Below the pieces are notes generated by a model that did not search any database, was not told the DNA's origin, and saw only the letters and a program-made list of their open reading frames with translations. Shown here piece by piece: positions 9,293 to 64,000 of a stretch of 64,000 nucleotides of DNA. Source of the stretch: Sialis fuliginosa (Eukaryota > Arthropoda > Insecta > Megaloptera > Sialidae); the NCBI GenBank assembly GCA_961205875.1, contig OY540815.1, positions 21,265,638 through 21,329,637 on the forward strand, written 5' to 3'. The position numbers and the translations under genes were made by a program. How positions within the stretch are numbered: position 1 is the stretch's first letter; every line of letters begins with the position of its first letter.

Positions 9293-40498
<31,206 letters not shown>

Positions 40499-43395: not shown

Positions 43396-46300
43396 TTAAG
43401 CCATTTGTTCATACTTTGCTTTGTTGATGCTGTTAGCAAGACAACAAGATAAAATTACACCAAGTAATGGGAAAAATGCTATACCCGTTGCAGTTCCAGC
43501 TACTAGACCAATATTTGACTCTATGAATGATACAATCATATCAAAACAACCCTGAAATGAAAAATATATATAAGTAATGTGAAAATTGTTTTTTTAAATG
43601 ATCTTAAAAATAAATGTGATAGATTTTTAAAAATATTGTGCACACAGTTCTGCAGTTTCAATGAAGATAATGATTTTTGGTAAGTTCTAATTTATTACTA
43701 AACCATTAAAGATAAGCTACAAATATTATAAATTTTCAACCGATGCCTATGATGGGATATGTACGTAATGAAAGATATTCACCATCGAGTTTTGGTAACA
43801 GTTTCATATTGCAGACTTGGTTTGGTTGTTATACATCCATAAACTTTCTTAATCTAAGTGATAAATAATCATAAACTTACTTGGTTGTAAATTTCTTCTG
43901 GATTTTTGGTATTACAATTTTCTTTTCTACAACATGAGGCCGGAATATCCATTTGAGGTACAACATTCATCCAATCGCTAGGTTGGTGGTTACCGCAACA
44001 ATGTAACTGTAAATAAAACCATCAGTTAAATTTAAAAAACTATAATCAGGGTTTACAGATATTATACATACTGTAGACTGGATACCATCGATTTGCGTTT
44101 TAATTTGAAGAGATTCATTCTGGTAGTTATCGAGACTTTGATTAAGGCCTTTGTCGAACCCATAAGCTAAGCTACTTCTGTTAGCAAAGATAGACACACC
44201 TGCTCCTAGCTCTAGGACAAACACCACTGCCAAAAATGCTCCGTACTATAATACAAATATTTAAATATCTAAAATAGACTTGTAAAAATATGTTTTACCA
44301 GAAACGCTGAAAGCTCGGGAGTTTTTTGAATGGGTTTATTTCCAAATAAATTACTCCTTAATTCGGCTCTTTATTCTTTTGTTTTATATTCATACTTGTT
44401 TCTATTATTAAAATTGGAAATTTCCTTATCAAATAAATTAAATTTAAATTAAAAAAGTAAATTATTCTGCTCTAATATATACCACATAAATTAATTACTT
44501 AACCACAAAACACAAGTAGGGGGGAATATGTATATTATTAAAATTCCTAGATATTTGTTATCGAGTTTATATTACTATAACTATGATAATTTACCACGTA
44601 TAGAAGCGCTGGTTGACCTTTGACTGTGCAGCAGCAAGCCAGAGATCCTATGAGTATGATGAGGGCCCCGGTTCCTATGAGCACGTGTGGAGCTGTCCCG
44701 GAGAACTCTGTGCTGATCTCCATATATTTGTAGAGCTCGATTTCCATCCACACTCCTACGGCTAGGATAGCTATACCAGATACCTAAAATAGTGAATTTA
44801 ATAATCAATTGTTTTGTATGAAGTGGCTCTATCTGTACAGTTAAAATATTTGGGTTTTTTTTTACTCTATTCTATGCGTATTTTTTAAAAATTCTGTTTA
44901 TTATTGTTTCGATTTGACATGAATATTACTGAACTGATTTTAATTGAACTTCCACTTTTAGAAACTCAAAGACTAGGGAATTGACCGTTTTTGGAAAAGG
45001 CAACTGATCTTTCAGATATTTCAGAAGGACTATTTTTTAAAAATTATGTCAAAAAGTACAAAAATAGTCAAATACGAAATAAACTTTATTTTTATTTTTA
45101 TAAAATTTATAAAGTGATGGAGCTCGGGACAGTTTAGGGACATTTATAAAGTATACCGATTTTTCATTTATTAATTCGTCATTTTATCGGGCGATACTCT
45201 GAATATCAACTGAATTTTATTTTCATATCTTTGTTTATTTTATTTAAACAGTGACGTCACTGGCGACAGCTATTTGAATATTGCATAATTGTTTAGGAAA
45301 AGGTTTACTCCTCCCCCTCTTTCCTCAACGGTACCTCCCTGCGGTCAACATACTAACACAGATTATACCCCCCCCCCCCCCCTTCTGGATAAAATGAAGT
45401 CAGCGAAATATTTTTTTAAATTAAATTATAAACACGTTCACTGTTCACCCTCAGTCAGTATTACGTATAAGAAAGTCCTGTGGTACCCATGGCAGCTTTT
45501 TATTTAAGTTTTAAGTTTTTTTTATATTTAAATTATTAATTAATTTGTTAAAAACGGACAGACGAATAATTTGAAAAAAAAAACGATAGAATCTCAAATC
45601 GGTTTAATTATTCTGGTCTTATCTCAGTAACCAATCTCTTTAATTGACCGTGGATAATTTTGCAGACCTACGAAAAAATTATATTTAACGGATAATTACC
45701 CCTTAACTTTATTTTCTATTTCTATCCAGCATTAGTCTTTGTTCATAGTGATTAACGCCCACAATACAATAAGTTTTAAGTACATCCAACTCTTTTTACA
45801 CTGTACATATGTACGTTTCAACGAAAACCGTGTAAAAAAAGTATTTTTTTTTATTAAGAAATCTGTTGCTGGAATTTTGCACCCCCCCCCCCCCCCCCCC
45901 CGTTACTACGCCACTGGTGTGGCCATATAAAAGTTCTGCATCTTAAACAATTTCGAAATTTCATTCTGTACGAACTGCACCGTTTGCCCCCCCTTAATCC
46001 GGTACTGAATATGCATATATTAAATGAAAACATATCTACATATTATATGAAAATAAAAAAAAAGTTTGTATGCAATATTGATGCGTATATCTGTAAACAA
46101 TACATAAAAATAACTGTAATTATGTAAAAATATAAGAGAAAATAACAGATAAATGAGCAATTATATATTTTTTATTAGAAAAAGTTATGGAAAAAATATT
46201 AAAATAATCTTTAAATACTTAAAATAAATAAATCAATATTTATGAGAATTTTTTTTTTAAAACAACTAGTTGCATTTCAAAGTTACAATATGGAACTCAA

Positions 46301-48651: not shown

Positions 48652-49896
48652 TTATCTACGTTTCTGACCTCCACCTCCAGAAAGGATCATAACAATACGG
48701 ATGAAGATATTAAGGGTGTCCATGTAGATTGAAAGAGCACTGGAAAAAATAGCATTACTGAGTTTTATAATTATAGAGAAAAAAAATTTGTTTTAAAGAT
48801 TGGAATTTCTACATTTCATGGCTTTGCAGATTGATTTTCCTCAGGAAAATTATGTGTTTTTTATGCAGGCCTTTACTTACGCATTTAACGGATCATAAGG
48901 TTTAACAGCCCCGTAGTTGGGGTACATCTCAGCCTGTTTAACAATTCTCTGCGTGTCATACAGCAAGAATCCAGAGAACAAAAGCAGTCCTCCGTATAGT
49001 GATATAGAATACAGTCCAGCACCCAAAACTGTCGTGGGTGGCAACCAGATGTTAGCAAGCGATGCTGCGAATACTATTCCGAATCCCATAGCTAGAGGAG
49101 CTCCCATGTTTAGGAACTTCTCACTCGGAGCGCAGACAGCAACTGTAGAAAGCCCTCCGACAACTCCTGCAGTGTACCAAGCAGCTCGGACTATAATTGG
49201 GCCCCCCATTAAACACAAAGGAGCCAGGATAGCTCCTAGTATCCCTGTATGGACCATCCAAGCAATCTGTTTGGTCCCAAATCCTGGCTGGTAATCGATA
49301 GACTGTGCTACGTAACCGCTGCCCATCATTAAAGCGATAGAAGCAGCGATTGATAAGAAACCATTACGTGTGACTAGACGCATAATCGTTGGAGATCTAA
49401 AGGCAGCCATTGCGCTTGCTGCAGTTAGTGCGAGCGATCCACCAAAGTAGAGATAGGTTGTTTTAATGCGATCTTTGACGTATTGTGGCCATAACCTGAA
49501 AAAATTAATTTTGTTATGAGGAAATTTTTTTTTTTTTTGATGGAGGTTAGTATTCTTACATTGCTTTATCTATTGCACCAGCTTCATTTGATAATCCTAA
49601 ACCATAGAAACATAATGCTCCTAGACCTAATACAGCACCACCGGCTAAGGCACCTTTTCCAATTCCGTAAGCTGGAATAAAATTATTTTAAGCTATGTAA
49701 AATATAAACAGTCAAATTTTTTACCGTTTGCGCTAGGGGGTGCCATTGCACGTTCTTTCAAAGTTTGTCTACGAGCTGCTCTACTTATCATTTCTTTATT
49801 TTCATTTGACATCATCCGAAAAACGGGTCGTAAAGCTATTTGTTTTGATAAAGTATATCGTACCACAGGGGCACGACATATCGTAGCTATTAACAT
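48652..49896 (-). CDS. GHITM: Growth hormone-inducible transmembrane protein (mitochondrial TMBIM5/MICS1), complete
   Basis: Four exons: 49725-49896 (ATG at 49896), 49560-49671, 48881-49495 and 48652-48739 (TAA), giving 328 residues; vertebrate GHITM is about 345. The N-terminal ~30 residues are Arg-rich and lack acids, as in a mitochondrial targeting presequence. The rest contains several hydrophobic helices and family blocks: WPQYVKDRIKTTY, APSEKFLNMGAPL, LPPTTV, LLYDTQRIVKQAE and the C-terminal LSIYMDTLNIFIR. The LLYDTQ motif is the BAX-inhibitor-1 superfamily signature. The known protein sits in the inner mitochondrial membrane, supports cristae organisation and cytochrome c retention, and has been implicated in Ca2+/H+ exchange. 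It is the third of four head-to-tail minus-strand genes, 473 bases downstream of the large secreted-protein gene. Nothing is broken or missing. Confidence 0.98.
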
Positions 49897-50368
49897 CTTG
49901 CTTATTGATTTTTAAACTGAAAAATATATATAAAATAATTATTTTCTAGAAAATTCTAAAATGATGTAAGATGATGAAATTTTATATTGTTGATAAACTG
50001 TATTTATTATTTATATTCCACATACCTTTGTATATATTATTGTAAGAACACTTGATAATTTAGAAATGATTAAATATTTTCAATCGAACTGCCAATTTTT
50101 ATAAGAAAACGTTTGTTATTTTTCGTGTTTTTCATAGACAGATCGTAAATAAAACAGTATTGTAAAAAGAAGTATATTTAATGTTTTAAAAAGATAACCT
50201 TGTCCCTCTAGTGAGGATAAAAGAAACTAAGAAAATTTTGTCATCTTACGCCATCTAATTAAAGTTACACTAACTAAAATATAATAGCGGGAAATTCAAA
50301 TATATTTTATATATAATAAAATTAATGGCTTCAAAATAATTAAGTGTATTTAATTAAATGTAACAATT
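49897..50368 (-). other. Short intergenic spacer, GHITM 5' flank
   Basis: 472 bases between the stop of the secreted-protein gene and the GHITM start. AT-rich; it probably holds the GHITM promoter and the upstream gene's polyadenylation site. No clear TATA box or repeat. Confidence 0.6.
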
Positions 50369-52043
50369 TTAATTTATTCCGTTTTTAACAACTATAAAAA
50401 TTTCATTTAAATTATTCAATGAAGCATATACATAATTATTATTATTAAAACTAAACGGAATCAGGGCTTTTAAATTCTCCATTTCAACTGCAGACTCCAA
50501 TGACCATCCTTCTACATATTGGTATGAATAAATGTCAAATGAACCACTATCAATTGAAATACAAAGAAACGGATCATCTAAAAATTAAAATAGTATTTTT
50601 AGTATATAGAAAACCATTCTTACAAATGTAAGCGACTTACTTCCCACGTAAAATACTCCTAAAGAACTAACTGGACTTTCATATTGAATACTTTGATAAA
50701 AATAATAATTATCAAAATCTGACTGATATTTTAAAACAATTACCGGAGCGTTTTCTTGCGCTATTATTATTAAATTATCATCATCATCTAAGACAACACC
50801 TGTAGCTTTAATAACACCTGTTGTTTTTACACTACATAGATACACAAACTAAAAATAAATATTAATGTTAAAATTGTTGTAGATTAATCAAAAATCATCA
50901 ATTTAAAATTTAACAGTAAAGACCAAAAAAAGTTCTTATGCTATATGATTATTTGCAAGAACTTTTTTAATCTTTATGGCTAAACATTTGTAGTTAAATA
51001 TTACACCCTACTAACTTTTTCTTTCTCGGAATCAAACCGGTGTATTTCTGTATTTCCAATTTCAGAATTGTAGATGTTACCAATAATTATAATTCTACCT
51101 TGAACTGTTTCAAAAGACTCCAAAACCCACGGACCTTTTGTTTCAATTTTTTGAATCAAAATCGGTTTCATCTAGTTTAAAATAAAATTATTAATAAAAT
51201 ATAATATTTATTTTGTAAAGGAATCACCTGAGAATAATCTATTTTATATACCAAACACCCTATATCATGAGTGTTCTTATTAGGGTCATAATACAAAGAT
51301 ATAACTATGTAGTCGTTCCCTTTTGAATTATAGAAAACTACACCACTGATGTACCCTGTCTCCATCGTATCCACATCAAAATTAAAACCATCTCCTATTA
51401 TTACTTGTGTTTCTTCTTCTTTATGAATCTGTGACCTAAATCATAAAAAAATGCAATAGGATCGAAATATTTAAATGGAAAAAAATTCAAATCTTCTACT
51501 CAATGATTTTTTCTGACTAGATTTTTTTTTAATTTGCTATTAACTCATATGTATCTATCCCCCCCCTCGAAAATTTTTCTTACTACGCCACTGGTAAGAT
51601 CACTTAAAGGTTTCTTATAGCATATAATGAAGATATATAAAGAAATATATAATTTTTGTAAAAATCTTATGACAAAATCTGTTGATGCAATTTGAAAACA
51701 CAGAGCTTCAGTTTCAATTTGATTACGTACGTGCATTTCTCAGAACTGCTTATAGTATTAGTGATAATACTAATCACAATATTTGGGTCACGTGAATAAG
51801 TAAAAAATCTTTTACGTTCTTCTTCTTGCAAAACATTTATCGATCCATATGAAGACATTTCAACTATATATTGCAAAGGGCAAAAGCATTCATCTGAAAG
51901 GCCGCAGTACGATCCGTTTGTTCTATTTCTAAGATCTAGCATCGTGTACCCATTGTTTGAAATGCTATGGCCTTTTGATATCTTAGATACAGGGATATGT
52001 ATGTCTTTATTTATTTCCATGTACATGTATTTTGATGTCATTC
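50369..52043 (-). other. C-terminal propeller-like part of the secreted protein (exons 26-30)
   Basis: Exons 51731-52043, 51228-51435, 51016-51171, 50641-50848 and 50369-50577. Exon 26 holds a compact cysteine cluster (YCGLSDECFCPLQY) that may form a disulfide knot. Later exons encode repeated strand units such as PWVLESFETVQGRIIIIGN followed by EIHRFDSEKEK, and SLESAVEMENLKALIPFSF, resembling the N-terminal propeller units. The protein ends with VVKNGIN. The acceptor and donor for each exon are clear, and the first codon of exon 27 is completed by AC from exon 26. Confidence 0.6.
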
Positions 52044-55000
52044 CTGTAATAATAATAATTTTACTGGACCAGTAAAAAATTATAAAAAACTGTAGATACC
52101 TTTAGTTAGTGAAAATCCTTTATTTATATTATTTTCAACACCCCTAATCAAAGTTTCAGTTTCATTTGTAACATGGAAATATTTCGTAAAACCTTTATTT
52201 AAATCTGAAATTTCATTGCCGTTCAATGAAGTAAAATCAAGAATTGAGTTAATTTCTATCGGGCTTTTGAAATGCTGAAAAATATAATGCATGGTTGCAG
52301 CTTTTTTAAAAATTTGTTTAAATCTGTAAGTAACTTACCACATTGCCTGTAATAATTACATTTTCATCGTAAAATATAGCGTCATTATAAGCTGATAGTA
52401 ATTTCATATTATTTAATGAGTCTATCCGTACGTTATTTCTAATATGACAATTGTTGGTAAAATATTTATTTCCTTTTATTATCTGAATACCTTCATCGGT
52501 AATGATGTCAGTTACAGAAATATTATTTATTGTATGCATTTCAGTTAGTCCTAAGAAAAATAACGTTTGTAAAATTTTTATTAATGCTCTAAATTATTAA
52601 GAATTTGGTCTAGATCAAAACCTCAATATGCTTTCTATGAGATCTCAAATTATATAATAATGTAAAGCTGCTATCACCACTGCTTTTATATCACTAAATC
52701 ATTAATAAATATCATTTAAAGTTAATGTACAACGGGCATAAAGGTTCCAACCTTAGGAACCGTCCTTAAAAAATTATATATATTTTAAATTTACCAGTTA
52801 GTTCTAAATGCTGGAACATCATTTGTTGAGTGACATATTGTGTAGAAGAACTGTTAATCAACATACGATTTTGAAGAAAATCATTAAAGCCATGTTTTTG
52901 AATTGTTTCTATATTTAAGTTATTTGTAACTTCAATATTGTAGAATATCGTATACGGTATTGTTTTATTTGAATCGTAAGTTACTAAATCCTCAGGATAT
53001 ACATCAAATATAGTTTTTGGTACAGTCAATCGAGTCGCTTCTAGTCCTTTTAAAAATGTTTTTTTCCCACGGACTATTTCATTACTATTCATATAAACGA
53101 CGTGTCGTAAAAATAATTCAACATTAAAAGAATTAATTATATTTATATTGGTGTTACCGGATACAGAGATAGAATCACAATGTACATCGTTTTCAAAAAT
53201 ATGATAACCACTTTTAAACTACAACAAAAAAATTTATAATAATATAATATGTATTTACACAAATAGCAAAGATTATCAGAATAATATCATAGAGATGTAT
53301 TTTCTAGAAATCTACCAATCTTAATGATATCATTCTGAAATTTATTTATTTTAAAATACCTGTTCTTTGTTATTTTTGAAAAATGCATCGTCAATTATTT
53401 CAGTTATATTTATATTGTTTATAAATTTAGAAATAATTATATTTTCTGTAGCTATGTTAGTTTTAAAGTGTACCTAAAATAAGATATATAAATGAAATCT
53501 CAGAAGTGTTATAGAGTAAATAAAATCACATTATCCTTCAAAAGAGCTGAGCGGTGAATAAATTAGTCCTTACCTCTCCTTTGATTTCTTTATTAAAACC
53601 ATGACTGACAGCTTCATTTAAGAATCGCGACAGATGTCCGTTATGAACAATAACATTCCCGTGCACTGTTACTGAATTCCATCGACGTTTTATAAGATCT
53701 ATTAAATGGACTACAACATCTGTAATTTCACCATTTAATTTGTGCGTAAATATTGATCCCTTCACATCAGCTTTGTTTAAAATTAAAAGTGGCATATTTA
53801 TCGTTTGTAGATTTCTTTCACTGCACCTTATTGCTTTAGAAATGTTCAAATTATTTATAGTTGGTGTTGTTAATGTATCATCTGCAAAAATAATTATATT
53901 AAATGTCAGTTAACAAACAAACATAGATACAAAGTGAATGTGTAACCCTAATTTAAAATATTTTTAAAGAATTGTTTAATTTATTATTTACCAATGAAGA
54001 CATTTTGAAAATGATGACGAGAACTTATATTTTGTGGAGCATTTCTTAATAAAGTATTATGTTTTATTGTGTTGTAATCTAAATTATTTATTCTGTCAGA
54101 ATTAAAATCAATTGTTGTCACTGAATTTTCGAATTTAATTTTTCCTGAAACTTCTATTACATCGGAATTGAATACAATCTAAAAATAATAATATTTTTAT
54201 AATGGATCCATCAGAATATTATATATTATAATCTTACTTTAGATAAATAATTTTCAATTGGAACATTATTTATAAAATTTATATTAAGATCGTTAAAATT
54301 CACATTAGATTTTAATTTTATTCTTTCAAATCCATTTGAAGTTTTCATGAAATTAATGACTTTGTTGAAATCATAACCATTCACGTATTTTACTGTAATA
54401 TTTTTACCTGCAATAAAACATTAGTTAATAAACGTATAAATTTAATAAACGTGTCATTAACTTACATAATATTTGATCAAAATTAATGTTTGATAAATTT
54501 TCATTTCTGTTTGTCAAAACTGATTTTTCAAACATATTTTTCACGTCAACGCCATTGATTTTTTGATAATTGAAGACTGCATTTGGGTTTAAAATTAGAT
54601 TTCCTTTTATTGTTACACTCGAAAAGTTATTATGTCCTGAAAAACGTTAATTAGTTGGTGCATATGAAATTGCTGTTTTTCATTTGAATAATCAATTAAC
54701 ATCGGCAATTTTTTATTTTTTAGTTTTATAGCACTAAATTTTACCTTGCGAAATATTCTTTACAGCATTGATTTCTGAAATGTTTTTATCATTTATAAAA
54801 TTTGTGTTCAAATCATCTACTATAATTTTATTGAATATTTTTGTCCCTTCTATTTTATACCTGAAATTAAAAATAAATAAATAAATTGCTTTAGCAACCA
54901 CATAAATTTTTTGTGGTAAGAACTGAATACCTTATATTATATATATGTATATCTTCATATTAAGAAAATGAACAGAACATTAACTATAAAAAAAAACTTA

Positions 55001-58000
55001 TTTTTTGCTATTCTACTTAACTGTAAAGCATTTACAGACAATTTCATTGAAATATCAAGGTATAAAAAGATATTTACCTGCCATTCTTTTGTACAGATTG
55101 CGCAACAATATTCCATATATTAGGTTCTAAAATAAGTATATCTTTTTCTAGAAATACAGATCCTTTAACTATGACATTGTCAAACCATACAACTGTAGGA
55201 TGTTGAGGCCATTTAGCCATTGGGACATCAACTGCATAAAGTGAACTATCCGCACTATTTATAAATGTTGTATTTATATTTGTGAAAGAAATCAGTTTTG
55301 TGAAATTTATTGGCGCAGTTATATCCTAAAATAAATTAAACTTGTATAAAGGGATTGTGTGATTCTAAAAAAACGTTAATCTAATTAGAGATTTTAAGCT
55401 TGCAAATGATTTTTTAATATTGCAAAAAAAAATTATTGCTTAAAGAAATAATCAAGTTTTTATATTTTAATATATACCTGTTTAACATTTTTTAACCAAT
55501 ACTTTTTCTCAATATCATTTTCATAAAGTTGATCATTAACGATAACTTTTACTCCTGGTTTAAAATTAATAGAATTCACGTTTAAATTTCCTCTAATTCT
55601 CACAGGCCTGTGATATATCTGTACAAAATTAGAAGCATTTTGAAAACTCATATTAAACATTGTTCCAGTTGGTCCTTCAAGTCCTAACTTTTTTACAAAT
55701 AAATGTTGTATTTCAACTGGCCCTATAAAAATAAAATATAAAAAGAAGACTTGATTTTTAAACCCAGATATTAAGATGGAGAGAATAAAAATGATAAATT
55801 CAACTTTACATACCTATAATTGTATTTAATTCATCGCTAATAACGACTGCTTGTTCTTTTAACGATATTCCATTAACAGTTTCTGTTATAATGTTATGCA
55901 TTTTCGTTTGTTGTAAATGTATATCAGACATTACCGTTTGATTTGTGTCTATCGTAAATAAATTATCAACCAAAAGTCCATTAACAGTTTTTGCTTTTAA
56001 TTTGTCTGCTTTTAAAGCTTTTTGAAATGTTAAAGTGCCTATAAAAGTTAAATAATTTATTAAATGCATTTTAATTTATATAAAATTATTTCAACCGTAT
56101 ATTTCATTGTCGGTATCTTTCTTGTAAAGTGTATTTACAAAATCATCCCAAATAATTCCATTTATTGTTTTCACTTTTAATTGATCCACATGCACGTTTG
56201 AAAGTAGTTTGAAATTTTCTATTTTCTGTTCAGAAAAATTCGAATTTATACCTAACTGAAATGAAAAAATGTAGAAATAATAAAATTAAAAAAGTATAGG
56301 TGTCTTTCTTACATTGTTCCAGAAATTAGTGTTTAACTTAGGAGAAATAACATGCAAGAATCTTTTAGAACCCATTACAGAATTATTTTCTTTCGTAACA
56401 ACATCTTTAAATTCAATATCATTTATTTTGTTCGCATATATGTTTTTAGCTTTGATATTTTGTAGTTTTGTATTCCCGTAGAAAGTTTGATTTCCATTTG
56501 TTACAAGTATATCTAAAATTGTTAAATTTGATTAAATATTTTTAAGAACACGCTTCTAATATTTTCTATACAGACTTTTTAACTGAGGTATATTTTTAAT
56601 TGTAACAGATTCTGCCGCAATGGTATTGACCCTAAAAAATCCAGGAATGTGTTGTGTTGTATTATGTAATAACCAATTGTCTTTCGTCCAGTTTTGATTA
56701 TTTATTGTATTTACTGTAATATTATTTACTGTCAAATTCCGGGCATGCAAAGATCCGATTATTTTCAAATTTATATTCATCTAGTAATGGAAATAAGATA
56801 TATTAACATACATAAACCATTCAAATTGACAATTGCATTGGCAACTGAGTCACTTATAAGTATTTTGTATTACATTTACCTCTGGGGTAAGGAACTGTAA
56901 CGTTTTCAGTTTATTTTTAATATCATTTATTTTACTTTTCATCGAATCCAAAGTTTTTAATAGTGATTTTATTTCCTAAAAAAAAAAAAAATTATGCTAG
57001 TGATGAAAATGAAATTATTTATTCCATGTATTATATTCCATATAAGTTTTTCATACCCCCATGTTTTCAAAAATTGGTTGTTTTACTGATACTCTATCTG
57101 TATCTGCAAATTTCAATATATCTACATTGCCATCTATGTTGTCTTTGTAAGATTTCTTCTTATTTTCTAACAATAGTATATTTGATTTGATTTTTTCTTC
57201 TAATTTGTCCAAACACTGCCCTATGTTACTTTTATCAAACACTGAACTTTCTGAAAACAATTATATACATTTTTCATTGTTTTAATACAGTAGAGCAGTG
57301 GTATCAAACAAAGGTTAGGTTAGGATAGTTTAGGTTAAGTTAGGTTAGGTTAGGATAGATTATATAAATGTAATTGACGATATTGTCTATATTTTTATGA
57401 TGTATGGAAAATATAAGGGTTTCCAAGAGCTGACCGCAATCAGGACACTAGATGGTAAAGGTGATTATTTACTTTTTAAGCAAGCTGCGATATTTTCCTT
57501 TATAATCAAAAAATGACCACATTCATATAGGTCTAAAAATCGGTTTAGGAAAGTTACATACCTGAAACTAAATTTGTAGGTTTGAATTCTTTTAATTTAA
57601 ACTCATTTTTATCAGTTATTGTTACTAAATATGTTTTATTATTATAATCAATTGCTTCTGCATCCACAATTCTATCAGTTTCCTCAATCGTGAAGATAGA
57701 AAATAAACTATCTTTCTTTACATCAAATAAAGTGACTCTGAATTCCTGAAATTTATTATTAATTAAATTTTTAAAATCTAAGAATTGTTTTATTATTATT
57801 AATTCGTAATCATTTTGGCAAATGAAATAATTGTCATACCGAATTCATTATACAAAATAGTTGTTCATTGAAGAAATAAAATTTAATGTTAATAATATTT
57901 TCAGTGTTTTTTACTTCGTATCCTTTGATAATTTGTGCATCTGTAAAAAATTATATTATATACTGGGTGAATATAAAATGTCTATGTTCTTTCATTTGAT

Positions 58001-59594
58001 CTATTAATGATATCTGTATTCATTGAACAAATATGTTAAAATAAATGGTAATTTACTGATATTTAATAAAACAGTATGTGTACCTTTAATTCTAAAAACG
58101 TTAACGTTTGTACCATTGCTATTTACCATCAAGAATTTCTCGTCATTATAATTATATACAGCTAGATTAATTGGTCTTTCTGTTGGAAGAAACTGAATCC
58201 TTTTTAATCCAAAAGAATTAAAAATAAGTACAATTGAACCAATCTAAAAAAAAATTATCAAAATACATTTTAAACCCATTTATGTATTTACATACTTTTG
58301 GGTTTTGCTTAACATTTTGTGAAATTATAATCAATATTCCTTCATCTACTTCTGTAGAAGTTATTGACGTTCCTCCGGTTGTTAAGATCTTTTCAATTTC
58401 ATCAAAATGTGAACCAGTCCAGTGATACAGACTAAAATAATATTTACGAATAAAAAATTCTGGTAAAATACATTTTAAAATTAACAACGAGAGTTAATAA
58501 TTTTCTACTCACGCAGAAGGGATTAAAGCATCATTAAAACTATTGAGGATTATTAAATATAATTCTTCATTATACAAAAAAAAATTTGCATCTTCTGCTA
58601 CTTTCACATTCAATATCATTTGTTGTTGTACCCATTCTTTATTTTTGTCGTGGTTAACGAGAACATATGTAATGCCACTTGTAACAGAAATCAATAAAAA
58701 TGATACTCCATTATAAAGAAATGACTGGAACAATATATTGTGTTAGGTACATACTTGTTAATTAATTATTCTCCTGCAGATGTGGACATAGACTATAAGT
58801 GTATATATACACCGATATTAATACAACTGTCCTTGGTTAGGGCAATCTCTGCGGGCCCTAATTATCAGTGGTGAAAATTGCAATAAACTGTTTTTAAATA
58901 TATATTACTCACGTTAGCACAATTTTGGTGATTATATACATTTATAATTTATATTCAGGGGAATAATTGTTTAACAAGTAAGTATGTATCTTTTTTGAAA
59001 ATAAACTATATTTAAAAATACCTTCACAAATAAAACACGCCCAGTAATTTTTAAACTGTTTATACGAGATATATTTAATTCATTCTTTTGTAGATAAACT
59101 ATGTTATTGTCGCATAGAATATATGTTTCATTAAATGCTTTAAAAAATAACGCAGTTTGTTGGAATGATAATTTCATAGTTGTGTTTAAATCGTTCTCTG
59201 TACCTGTAAAAAAAAATTATAAAATATTATATTGAAAAATGTCTAAAATTACTTACTATGTTTCCATCTTCTTTGAAGATCGTAACTTTCCAACATGGAT
59301 TCTTTTACATCGTTCAGTCGAAGATTTAAATATGAATCCAGAGTTTTACATTTAATAAATGAGACATTGATGAATATTGACAACGATAGACACTAAAATT
59401 ATAGTTGAAAGTATTATATGAGCCACACTCAGCTGCCAATATGACTTAAGATTATTAAAAACAAAAGGAAAACTATTTCTTTGCTAATAAATTGCAAAAA
59501 CAATTTTGTATTTACTTTTTTTTTTTATATGTAAACTTAAGTCTTTGTCTTATGAATAAATATTTTAACTTACAGTAAATATTTTCATATTCAT
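50369..59594 (-). CDS. Large secreted protein with two propeller-like ends and central ING-type repeats (1,891 residues)
   Basis: I rebuilt 30 exons from the ATG at 59594 to the TAA at 50371-50369; phases agree at every junction and the total is 5,676 bases. Exon 1 (59574-59594) and the start of exon 2 (59257-59392) encode a signal peptide (MNMKIFTCLSLSIFINVSFI) ending near a Cys. Order of parts: residues ~30-377, repeated beta-strand units with Tyr/Trp-Asp/Asn turns, resembling EAR/EPTP beta-propeller repeats; ~377-474, charged helical or coiled-coil linker; ~474-1527, about fifteen units marked by [VI]-N-[GN]-[ILV]; ~1527-1891, a Cys-bearing linker and a second propeller-like region. Many Asn-X-Ser/Thr sites and the absence of a membrane segment after the signal fit an extracellular, possibly matrix or eggshell, role. 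The Drosophila Nasrat/Polehole/Closca eggshell proteins are a tentative comparison only, from size and secreted nature. The donor of exon 11 is weak (GTCTGT at 56575), so that boundary is the least certain. Confidence 0.9.
52100..56780 (-). other. Central ING-repeat array of the secreted protein (exons 11-25)
   Basis: Exons 56576-56780, 56313-56512, 56096-56255, 55814-56038, 55478-55722, 55078-55325, 54745-54860, 54466-54636, 54238-54407, 53992-54178, 53574-53881, 53360-53473, 52795-53218, 52339-52550 and 52100-52274. About fifteen times a strand of the form G-x-[LV]-x-[FV], then [AVL]-x-x-[LI], is followed by [TS]-[IV]-N-[GN]-[ILV] and an acidic turn. Examples are TVNNITVNTINNQNW, TINGIIWDDFV, TVNGLLVDNLF, TVNGISLKE, KINGVDVKN and INNISVTDII. 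Repeat spacing is roughly 40-70 residues. I recognise no named Pfam domain here; a beta-solenoid or beta-ladder fold is inferred. Confidence 0.65.
56880..57250 (-). other. Helical/coiled-coil linker of the secreted protein (exons 9-10)
   Basis: Exons 57057-57250 and 56880-56975. The encoded segment is rich in Lys, Glu, Leu and Ile with heptad-like spacing (for example KLEEKIKSNILLLENKKK and SLLKTLDSMKSKINDIKNKL). It separates the first propeller-like part from the repeat array and may drive oligomerisation. This is inference from composition only. Confidence 0.6.
57312..57358 (+). repeat. Interstitial (TTAGG)n-like tract
   Basis: GGTTAGGTTAGGATAG and GTTAGGTTAGGTTAGGATAG, with degenerate TTTAGG/TTAAG units, lie in the intron 57251-57561 of the secreted-protein gene. 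TTAGG is the ancestral insect telomere unit. A CAGTGGTATCAAAC hAT-like tip at 57296 stands just before it. Confidence 0.7.
57562..59392 (-). other. N-terminal propeller-like part of the secreted protein (exons 2-8)
   Basis: Exons 59257-59392, 59022-59203, 58513-58724, 58296-58431, 58084-58243, 57840-57940 and 57562-57745. They encode units such as LYHWTGSHFDEIEKI followed by a 'TSTEVDEGILIIISQN' strand pair, and IFTIEETDRIVDAEAI followed by NKTYLVTITDKNEF. This alternation (aromatic-X-Trp-X-Gly, then hydrophobic strands ending in Ser/Asn turns) is the EAR/EPTP pattern known from LGI and TSPEAR proteins. Assignment rests on pattern reading, so a profile search would be decisive. Confidence 0.6.
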
Positions 59595-59966
59595 TACTGC
59601 AGTAAAATACAGTAGAGAACCTGTCTTAATGGGCAATAGGAGAATACTGACACATTTATAATTGAATCTATGCAAGATTTTACAATTCAGAGCTTATATA
59701 ATCAATTATTCAAAACATTATATTTGTTTGATGATTTATTATTTGGGATGGATAAAATATTGAAAATTCTGATTTTTTTCCTGTATAGATGTCGTTTTTG
59801 CAACAAGAATATGTCCCAAATTAATTTCCTGGAAAAAAATTCTGAGGATTCTTGAAAATAAAATGACTGTCCAAATTTTATATTGTTTATTGAAATTAAT
59901 TCTTAATTCTTATAAAAGAAATAATATTTTACATTTCTTAAAAATAAAAACAAGATACATTTAGTA
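59595..59966 (-). other. Intergenic spacer between the zinc-finger and secreted-protein genes
   Basis: 372 bases between the zinc-finger stop (59967) and the ATG at 59594. It presumably holds the zinc-finger polyadenylation site and the promoter of the downstream gene. AATAAA reads on the minus strand near 59884-59889. No repeat seen. Confidence 0.55.
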
Positions 59967-62900
59967 TTAAGTATCTTTATTTTCGTCAATTATTTGGTAG
60001 CTGTGATCATTAAGTACATATTTAACTGTAAACTTTTGGTCAGAAACATATCGCACACCCTCATTCTTTTGTTCATTCGTTTGCTGCCACTCTTTAAACG
60101 CAGCCAAATCAGTTTCCACAATCTCAACTTCCTCGTTTCCCTTTCTGTTCTCCTGATCGACAACCAGAGTGATTAAATCGCTGATTGGGTAGACTTGTTC
60201 TTCTCCTGCTCCGTTCAAAACTGAAATAAAAAATGTAAGGTTGTTAAGAAGCTACAATGACTAACTTGATAACTGACTAACATCGGAAAGTATCCATTGG
60301 TTGTCTGTCCTCGGAAATATAATTCAAAACTTGGTCGTTTGTGACGACTGAACCATTCTCTTCTAAAATGACATAGTGCATGTCTTTATCTTCGGTTTTT
60401 TGTGACTTGGCCTAAAAATCATTGATAATAAAATAATAATAATAAATATTATTCAAGAATAATCTAAGATTCAACACTTTTATAGGTTTTCTTGGTTATG
60501 AATTGAATTATAATAAAAATCCATATTGGGTCAATCCATATGAAGTGATCCAGCAAATATATTGATTTTTTGTTGGTAGTTCAAAAGAGTCATTATTTTA
60601 ATTTTATTATTTTTTATTATCGCGTGGCTCTCCAAGTTAAATACACACAAAAACCATTGTAATTTTGACAAATACCAATACATACATTAACTGAAGTTTC
60701 TGTCGTCAAGAGTTTCTGTCTGCAGAACCGATTATGTCTTCGTAAATCACTCAACAGCCAGAATCTTCGATTGCAGATGAGACACTTGTTTGTAGGTTCG
60801 GGAGAATGAACCCTCGCATGCATTAGCAGTGAGTTGCGGGTCACAAATAATTTACCACACTCGCTGCAAGAGTAGTGATTGCCCGAATGGAGTTTAACGT
60901 GTTGCCGGAACCTTTGAATAATTCCCATTATCATATAATATTAAAATATAATAAGATTCAGCACTCACGTGTTTTCATTTGTAGAAACTGTCTTGCAGAC
61001 TTCGCAGAAATATGGACTGTGTGTTTTTGTGTGTCTGCGTAGTTCCACGAGGGAGTAGAACACTAGACCGCAATGTCGGCAGCACCAACTTACACCAAAG
61101 CTCTTTGAAGTATTAGGTTTAAGAAACACTTTATTCTGTTCATCTGTATGATTTTTTTTATGTTCTATCACATCAGATATCTTTAATTTGTCACCTGTAA
61201 TATATTTAGCAGATTATAGTCTACATTTCTACTTAAATTTATGTTGATTTTACATTTAATAACAGATGAAAAACTGAAACTTATGAAAGGTAATGGAAAG
61301 CAAAATCAATTTTTTGGAAATATCACAAAAATTATCAGATTTACATACTAAAGATTAGAAAATACTGATTATTCTGTAAAACGTATCGGATTATGAATTT
61401 AAAAAAAGGCCACTTCGTATTTGACCTCAATATTTGTATTTCTATACATTTTAAATTGAAATAAAGAGTTCCTGAAAAGAAATACATAGAATCTTTTCTA
61501 TAGGTTTTAAATCCAATAGTTTTTGCGACATTATAAAATTGATAAATTTATGATTTAAAAACTTACCGTTTATTTTGAATTCTTTCCCACAAACTTTACA
61601 AATTGTTTCATTCTTTTTGATATGCGTGTTAAAATGTTTTCTTAGATTTGCTTTCGAGGGAAAGCTATAATTACACAAAGGGCAAGGGTTTTGTAGAACT
61701 TTTAAATTATCAAAATGTTTATCTCGATTATGGATATTGAGTAAAGACTTTGAACTGAATGTTTCGTTGCATTTTTCACAAGAAAACTCTGCCAGTGAAA
61801 CATTATGTAACTGTACATGCGATTTTAATAATTCTCTGAAAGAAAAACCAAAATTAATAATATAAATATAGTAATAAAAAAGTGTTAAACTCACTCATCA
61901 GTCGTTGAAAATGTACAGTATGAACATAAATGTGATTTTAACTCATGTGCCTTCTTTTTGTGGTAATAAATGTCACTTCTAGTAGAAAAAACTTCATTAC
62001 AGTCTTCACAAATCAACGGCACATCTTGATCTTCTAAAATATCCACACTAAAAAGATGATTTTATTATTTAGGTTTCTGTAAAGGTGTAAAACTTGACAA
62101 AATTAAGTAATGTGAAATTCAGTATTATAAGAACAGTTAGTCAGTTGAAAGTCGTGGTTAAATTGTTTTATAATTTATGCTGTGACTTATAGTATTAAAG
62201 TATTATAGTTTAAGAACTGGCAACGTTTTACCTTAAGTCATTTTATAAAAAACATTTTTCTTAGGGATATCTGTGTATACTTCAAATATAGTCTCATAAA
62301 AATTTGTTCATGTATTAATATATAGTTTCTATTTACCTGAAACAATCGGGAATGTTATGGACCAGTTTTTGGTGACTGATCAAACTATTTTGATCTGAAA
62401 ACTTTTCAAGACAATCGTTGCATTCAAAAGTTTGTTGGAAATGTGTTTCAGAAAGATGTTTCCGTAACTGAGTTCTAAAATAAAAATATTATGTTATTAA
62501 TAAATTTATTATTAGACTTTGCTTCGACCTAAAGCATGCAATTAATGAATTATCATCATTAATACTTACATTGAACGGAACCTTTCATTACAAATATTAC
62601 AAACACGATTTAAATGTTTTTTTCCTTTAACATCTTTACTTATTTCATTATTAGTGATATTGTTTTCTGGTGTTTTAATTAAAGTTCTAAAATTAAATTT
62701 GTTTCCACTGTTAATATGTATTTAAATAAATATATCTAATGGAAAAGAAACAACATTCTAAAGAATAAACTTACTTTCTTAATAATGTACAGATATTTGA
62801 TACAATATCAAAGTTATGTTTAGATTTTCCCTGTCTGTGTAATCGTACATGTTCTTTCACAAGACCCTGTTGATATTTTTTGTCATAAGGAAGTAAAACA

Positions 62901-63880
62901 CTACAAAAAATACGATTTTTTTTAGTACGTAGATTTAGTTATTACAATACAAATTATTACCGACAAACATCACAGAGGGCATATTTTTGGTCGTGTTTTT
63001 GTAAACAGTGTCTCGGCAATTGGGGAGCTTTTAAAAAGGCAGGACAGTCGTTGCACCGATAATATGTATCGTTCTCAGAACGGACGGTTTCCAACAACAG
63101 ATGAGAGAATGATTTTAACATCTGTAAATTTAAAACATACATATTTTTGCTGTATCTTCTTTATTTTGTTTTAATCATTTTAATTTTTCTGATTATTTGT
63201 GTACTTTTTTTTAAATAAAAATTCCAGAGAATATTATTTATAATTTATGTTCTATCCATTTTTTTGGTATAACAAATCATTTTTATCATATATAGTTTTG
63301 TGTAAATTAATTTTTAAATATATTTATAAATCTTACTTTTTTGATTTCTTCGTTATCAATATCAACTTCGGTTTCTTTCCATCCTTGTATATTTACACAT
63401 TGAACTTTCAAATTATTCAAAGCGGCATAGATGTCATCATTATTTAAATTTATTTTTGTCGATGATTTCAAAACAAAAACTTTTTTGGGAATTTTTTCCA
63501 TATTTTGTAATAAATTATTCAATTCTGACTGTTCCAGTTTTTTTTCGGTTTTTATAATTTTCATTTCATTGTTATTTTTTAGTTTAATTTTTTTCTGGTA
63601 TGCTAAAGTTTCATCTAAAATACAAAAATCAATAATAAAAGGATTAGAAATAATTAAGTAACATTTACTTACTCACTAATGTTTGTTCTTCTTCTAAATA
63701 TTCTATTTCAAAATCGATATCATTAAAATCGTGTTCATTAACATTTTCATTTTTATTTGATTCTTCAACAGGTGAAGAACATTCATTTTTATCATTCTGA
63801 CATCGTTGATAAAAATTAGACCATGTTAGTAACGTATTTGCACAAGAAGAACATAATTTTAAAGATATATTAACATCCAC
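59967..63880 (-). CDS. ZAD C2H2 zinc-finger protein with about 13 fingers, 5' end outside window
   Basis: Twelve exons: 63673-63880, 63337-63614, 62961-63121, 62775-62900, 62570-62686, 62337-62474, 61895-62047, 61567-61835, 60969-61194, 60686-60911, 60282-60411 and 59967-60220 (TAA); 761 residues are visible. The first visible exon holds the second half of a ZAD domain (LCSSCANTLLTWSNFYQRC). The ZAD is an insect-enriched N-terminal zinc module for protein dimerisation, so its first Cys pair must lie in an exon beyond 64000 or one I could not define. An acidic, Asn-rich linker follows, then about 13 C2H2-type fingers, for example VCNICNERF and FECNDCLEKF. The last is C2HC (NKCLICNRRFW ending RRHNRFC). 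The protein is probably a nuclear DNA-binding regulator with unknown targets. Reading past the donor at 60685 gives an alternative end at 60617, a possible retained-intron isoform. Confidence 0.94.
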
Positions 63881-64000
63881 CTGTAAAAAATATATATATG
63901 TAGTTGATTGTTTATCAAACAAGGTGTTTATCAAAGTTAAAATCACCATGTATCGTTTTTTTTTATAGAGAACACAGGCTTTGAATGTGCTGCTATATAG
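63881..64000 (-). other. Upstream part of the zinc-finger gene, unresolved
   Basis: Immediately before the exon at 63880 is a good acceptor (TTTTTTACAG). The remaining 100 bases could include the end of an earlier exon with donor ATG|GTGATT near 63949, but the encoded residues do not clearly resemble the first half of a ZAD. Left open. Confidence 0.4.

Follow-up and report, generated by a model that had tools for sequence, protein, structure and literature searches.

An EPTP/EAR protein with a long, degenerate repeat array in Sialis fuliginosa, a candidate scaffold of the insect egg coat

What kind of protein is encoded by the long, many-exon gene found at positions 50369-59594, on the minus strand, of a 64,000-nucleotide stretch of the Sialis fuliginosa genome (GenBank assembly GCA_961205875.1, contig OY540815.1, positions 21,265,638 to 21,329,637; hereafter the window)? 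A preliminary description, made from the letters of the DNA, had proposed an extracellular scaffold in which two propeller-like ends cap a repeat rod. In our analyses the gene is real, its central array is a real, degenerate repeat, and the N-terminal region of the product can be named, as it scores above the curated Pfam cut-off for EPTP/EAR. Based on architecture and literature rather than on homology, we give roughly even chances to the view that the product has a structural role in the insect egg coat, working in the manner of the Nasrat/Polehole/Closca proteins, to whose group it may belong as a divergent member.

The splice model was built by dynamic programming, after which two exons were added and six exon ends were shifted by hand. 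It runs from 59594 to 50369 as a single continuous frame of 1,894 codons with zero in-frame stops, which bears out the 30 exons in one frame described initially for a protein of 1,891 residues. The 29 introns measure between 52 and 311 bases, and all of them have GT..AG ends, which is no independent evidence because the model-building procedure allowed little else. A rerun of the locus without hand correction, with the codon table drawn from the entire gene, scored 286.3 and gave 29 exons and 1,861 codons. The same table gave 4.8 on the opposite strand, at most 7.4 in six strand or region controls elsewhere in the window, and at most 6.2 in six Markov-1 sequences. Since this test takes its codon table from the locus itself, training the table on the first half of the gene only is the fairer one; the second half then scored 89.3 versus 4.4 for the opposite strand, and none of five Markov sequences exceeded 8.2. 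A tblastn search of the rest of the window revealed no paralogue of the protein; the best of its four matches had an E-value of 2.5. The translation holds 32 N-glycosylation sequons, a figure to be read as a count and not as an enrichment. Separately, the intron between exons 8 and 9 harbours, on the plus strand at 57313-57354, a short run of TTAGG-like units, ggttaggttaggatagtttaggttaagttaggttaggttagg, which we take to resemble the insect telomere repeat.

The protein opens with a signal-peptide-like segment, in agreement with the preliminary description. Its hydropathy over 19 residues reaches 1.52 at residues 4-5 and is higher in three windows only, all of them inside residues 109-137 of the N-terminal domain and above 1.6. 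From this start, the protein is apparently secreted. In the whole-protein Pfam scan, EPTP (PF03736) is the sole family over its cut-off, with 24.2 bits for a curated threshold of 21 bits. The score rose to 29.4 bits (E 8.6e-07) with residues 1-373 and was 22.7 bits with a 146-residue piece. By the standard of the Pfam cut-off, the assignment of the N-terminal region to EPTP is thus good; the match, at residues 158-188, supports the propeller-like N-terminal end that had been noticed and gives it the name EPTP/EAR. Seven blade-like segments were delineated by eye in exons 3-8. When each was left out of the profile in turn, a single segment scored higher than all 200 shuffles; for four others, 1-6 shuffles reached the score, and for the last two, 12 and 60 did. 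Of six N-terminal blade-sized pieces scanned singly, two reached EPTP scores of 12.6 and 15.4 bits, below the threshold, and the other four yielded none. We consider the count of seven blades only probable. The charged linker that follows is probably helical. Two further Pfam matches, ANAPC4_WD40 (16.4 bits, cut-off 22.9) and Sacchrp_dh_C (13.7 bits, cut-off 31), were below threshold and were not used, and the N-terminal 373 residues found no relative among bacterial and archaeal contigs.

In the central array, 14 units of 34-43 residues, chosen by hand, could be aligned between residues 571 and 1526. Their consensus is h-I-N-[GND]-h ... G-x-x-x-F, with I-N-[GND] at the start of the unit and G-x-x-x-F approximately 22 residues on. 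The number of units comes close to the fifteen or so with a [VI]-N-[GN]-[ILV] signature in the preliminary description, but this strict signature itself occurs only 10 times between residues 475 and 1528. Shuffled sequences had a mean of 1.5 and a maximum of 8 occurrences (0 of 5,000 reached 10), and a looser pattern was found 18 times versus a shuffle mean of 6.4, with one of 5,000 shuffles reaching 18; both statistics flatter the array because the patterns were derived from the same sequence. The same 14 units served to train the profile, which inflates their total profile score of 313.5, and each unit was therefore held out in turn, against shuffles in which the first four residues were fixed. 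Seven of the 14 then beat all 100 shuffles, three were reached by 2-4 shuffles, and four by 10, 23, 25 and 86. The repeat is real, and it is degenerate.

No named domain had been recognised in this array at the outset, and none emerged from the libraries. The repeat unit matched no Pfam family in the whole-protein scan, and array pieces of 264 and 197 residues gave nothing better than E 0.11 with NCBIfam and PHROGs, the PHROGs matches at E 0.11 being left unused. Likewise, the 264-residue piece, about the first quarter of the array, had no relative among phage records, with nothing better than E 0.11. Searches of the PDB returned nothing beyond chance for the whole array, and for a profile of 10 of the 14 units three matches with E-values of 2.1-4.7, which were taken as chance. 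AlphaFold models were obtained for two single-exon translations, that of exon 23 with 11 other repeat exons (mean predicted local distance difference test, pLDDT, 48.5; predicted template modelling score, pTM, 0.24) and that of exon 14 with seven others (mean pLDDT 46.3, pTM 0.21). Both models say nothing on the fold of the array, and neither was used for a fold search because low-confidence models yield meaningless matches. As both predictions are of low confidence, the rod shape is one that we infer. Growth of the array by whole exons was also considered; six of 15 exon boundaries fall at or within about 3 residues of the G..F step as judged by eye, a relation too loose to claim.

The C-terminal domain begins with a Cys-bearing stretch (Cys 1574, 1580 and 1582), after which come blade-like, strand-like segments. 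It matched no Pfam family, and its 367 residues found no relative among viral contigs. The profile of the N-terminal blades scored -1.6 on the C-terminus, which 211 of 300 shuffles equalled, and that of the C-terminal blades scored 2.4 on the N-terminus, which 32 of 300 reached. None of the five C-terminal blades beat all 200 shuffles when left out (counts of 65, 134, 26, 7 and 155), and their profile gave E-values of 0.35 or worse in the PDB, taken as chance. Alignment of the two blade sets with hhalign gave a probability of 8.5% and an E-value of 0.004, a weak hint at most because both sets were cut on one and the same strand pattern. A second propeller thus finds no convincing support in these tests, though this domain may still be one. 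Of the image of two propellers capping a rod, the N-terminal cap is supported by its EPTP match; at the C-terminal end a strand-like pattern was found, with blade tests that were negative or weak, and the rod between them is, given the low confidence of the predicted folds, a proposed shape.

Table 1. Positions in the window of the gene and of the parts of its predicted product
Feature	Exons	Residues	Position	Strand	Basis
Whole coding region	30 exons	1,894 residues	50369..59594	-	splice model; 286.3 versus at most 7.4 in 13 controls
Signal-peptide-like start	1 and start of 2	1-22	59348..59594	-	by eye and hydropathy
N-terminal EPTP/EAR propeller region (predicted)	3-8	about 53-378	57562..59203	-	Pfam and leave-one-out blade test
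Only stretch matching the EPTP profile alone	spans 4/5 junction	158-188	58419..58592	-	Pfam PF03736
Charged linker	9-10	378-474	56880..57250	-	sequence only
Central array	11-25	475-1528	52100..56780	-	pattern counts, unit alignment, leave-one-out
C-terminal domain	26-30	1528-1894	50369..52043	-	sequence; Cys-bearing stretch, then strand-like segments

How does this protein compare with known EPTP proteins? One paper names as such the LGI proteins, GPR98/ADGRV1 and TSPEAR, and describes the EPTP domain of the LGI proteins as a presumed seven-bladed propeller with a function in protein-protein interaction (PMC3691968). The Sialis protein has in common with LGI1-4, ADGRV1/GPR98 and TSPEAR an EPTP match over the curated cut-off, in a region whose length would suffice for seven blades and with a predicted extracellular location. 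LGI proteins have leucine-rich repeats ahead of EPTP; here, the EPTP region starts about 30 residues past the signal-peptide-like segment, and no such repeats were matched in Pfam (E up to 10, with filters that drop most matches above 0.1). Neither did that scan match the N-terminal laminin G-like/thrombospondin-N domain of TSPEAR, or the Calx-beta repeats and seven-transmembrane region of ADGRV1. In their place the protein carries some 14 units of an unnamed repeat, followed by a beta-rich domain at the C-terminal end. By the Pfam scan, its architecture is unlike those of LGI, TSPEAR and ADGRV1, and it is an EPTP protein that is new at the domain level. None of these three kinds of EPTP protein is known to be an eggshell protein.

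A binding head and a second beta-rich end on either side of a long repeat array, behind a start that looks like a secretion signal, point to an extracellular scaffold. Of the preliminary description, the tests fit a long, secreted scaffold that combines a repeat array with a propeller at its N-terminal end. In an egg coat, the N-terminal EPTP/EAR propeller would be the docking head. The array of units of about 40 residues would act as a spacer that determines how long the molecule is and how it contacts partner chains; a second binding end would be provided by the C-terminal beta-rich domain. Once released into the space surrounding the oocyte, the protein would join a complex in the vitelline membrane, where that complex would retain other proteins, for example the Nudel protease or Torso-like.

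Among insect examples, three proteins known from Drosophila fit this picture best. The oocyte secretes Nasrat, Polehole and Closca, each of which needs the others to enter the eggshell, and Torso-like requires them to accumulate there (PMC6303783). The three are reported to form a heterotrimer and to interact with Nudel, and in Aedes each of them is ovary-predominant and required for melanization and viability (PMC10576393). The published accounts differ on the cells that produce these proteins, as the RNAs were found in oocyte and nurse cells and were undetected in follicle cells of Nasonia (PMC6777369), while the authors of the Aedes study think it possible that most of the product comes from follicle cells (PMC10576393). 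It is plausible that an orthologue would be hard to recognise, because Polehole is just 22% identical between mosquito and fly (PMC10576393). The parts of these papers at hand name no EPTP domain or ING repeat in the three proteins, and the comparison is by description. The likeness is that of a large, apparently secreted structural protein of insects, of similar size, to a group whose members diverge in sequence (Nasrat, Polehole or fs(1)M3, and Closca). We find it conceivable, if rather doubtful, that Nasrat, Polehole and Closca are themselves EPTP/EAR propeller proteins with an ING-repeat rod. If so, egg-pole patterning, through the fixing of Torso-like and Nudel, would share its type of docking head with vertebrate LGI and TSPEAR, mounted on a repeat array absent from the libraries searched.

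Several points weigh against an egg-coat role. In Nasonia, knockdown of the three orthologues caused severe embryonic defects but left the eggshells impermeable, and the authors doubt that the three are critical components of the vitelline membrane (PMC6777369). The pea aphid seems to be without fs(1)N and fs(1)ph (PMC3639227), and an EAR-type protein, so named, is part of a coral skeleton proteome (PMC7853314). The literature searches, which covered few subscription papers, revealed among the matches listed no published link of EPTP or TSPEAR to Polehole or the eggshell, and no paper that has TSPEAR together with Closca. The search for EPTP and insects returned nothing relevant among the matches listed, and that for EAR repeat-containing proteins and eggs one coral paper. 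Lastly, sequence searches of the PDB, which may overlook a shared fold, found with phmmer no solved EPTP structure and no LGI chain for the N-terminal part (five unrelated chains, E 0.035-0.81), and for the N-terminal blade profile three chains with E-values of 0.35-2.3, taken as chance, with again no LGI chain.

The likeliest alternative places this secreted EPTP/EAR protein outside the eggshell, in a different extracellular matrix or in signalling between cells (cuticle, trachea or nervous system), where its propeller would bind a cell-surface receptor as in LGI. The identity of the only family above its cut-off fits this idea, since the EPTP proteins named in PMC3691968 are LGI, GPR98/ADGRV1 and TSPEAR, and so does the coral skeleton protein. 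The architectures of LGI, TSPEAR and ADGRV1 nevertheless all fail to fit, because no laminin G, leucine-rich repeat or seven-transmembrane family accompanies EPTP here. A table of sex-biased genes of a shrimp also points the opposite way, as it lists a 'Polehole-like protein' and a 'Thrombospondin-type laminin G domain and EAR repeat-containing protein', both coded OB (PMC4659196), which we read as ovary-biased. Polehole is also among the ovary genes of another shrimp (PMC7040003). We hold a role in another matrix or in signalling to be possible, with less than even weight.

It is improbable that the model fuses two or three genes, for the propeller, the repeat and the C-terminal domain, lying head to tail with phases compatible by chance. 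Such a fusion could hide behind the two exons and six exon ends set by hand, in a model that comes from genomic sequence, and the C-terminal domain has little measurable kinship to the N-terminal one. Nevertheless, the model was a single chain before any hand correction, no intron is longer than 311 bases, and no second signal-peptide-like start was noticed by eye. As for a pseudogene in decay or an artefact of AT-rich DNA, which the Asn-rich translation and a G+C content of 24-27% per 2-kb step from 50001 to 60000 might evoke, this reading is nearly refuted, and very improbable in our view, by a frame open across all 30 exons and by the distance of the locus from its 13 controls.

If the egg-coat reading is correct and the protein is a relative of Nasrat, Polehole and Closca, the named propeller domain would offer a concrete surface on which to seek contacts with Nudel and Torso-like, and the repeat unit could serve to trace these fast-evolving proteins across arthropods. 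If it is no relative of theirs, it would still be an EPTP protein whose architecture departs from those of LGI, TSPEAR and ADGRV1, with a 40-residue repeat that the models in the libraries searched do not describe. In both cases a new family model could be built from the repeat unit.

The surroundings of the gene in the window were also inspected. On its 3' side lies an exon of the Bax1-I family (48880-49569, minus strand; PF01027, E 9.2e-38), presumably from a GHITM-like mitochondrial protein. On its 5' side, C2H2 zinc-finger exons are found at 60620-60940 and 61454-61894 on the minus strand, followed at 63668-64000, on the same strand, by a sub-threshold zf-AD match (16.9 bits, cut-off 28); zf-AD genes are typical of arthropods, and this match, together with the intronic TTAGG-like units, hints at an insect genome. 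Further away, a tetraspanin-scoring fragment below cut-off (19.7 bits versus 32.1) lies on the minus strand at 43970-44245. The plus strand harbours at 39629-40495 an open frame of 289 codons that is rich in Ser, Cys and His, with internal near-repeats and a Pfam match at chance level only (E 0.29), and at 34038-34439 a protein kinase exon (PF00069, E 7.9e-14).

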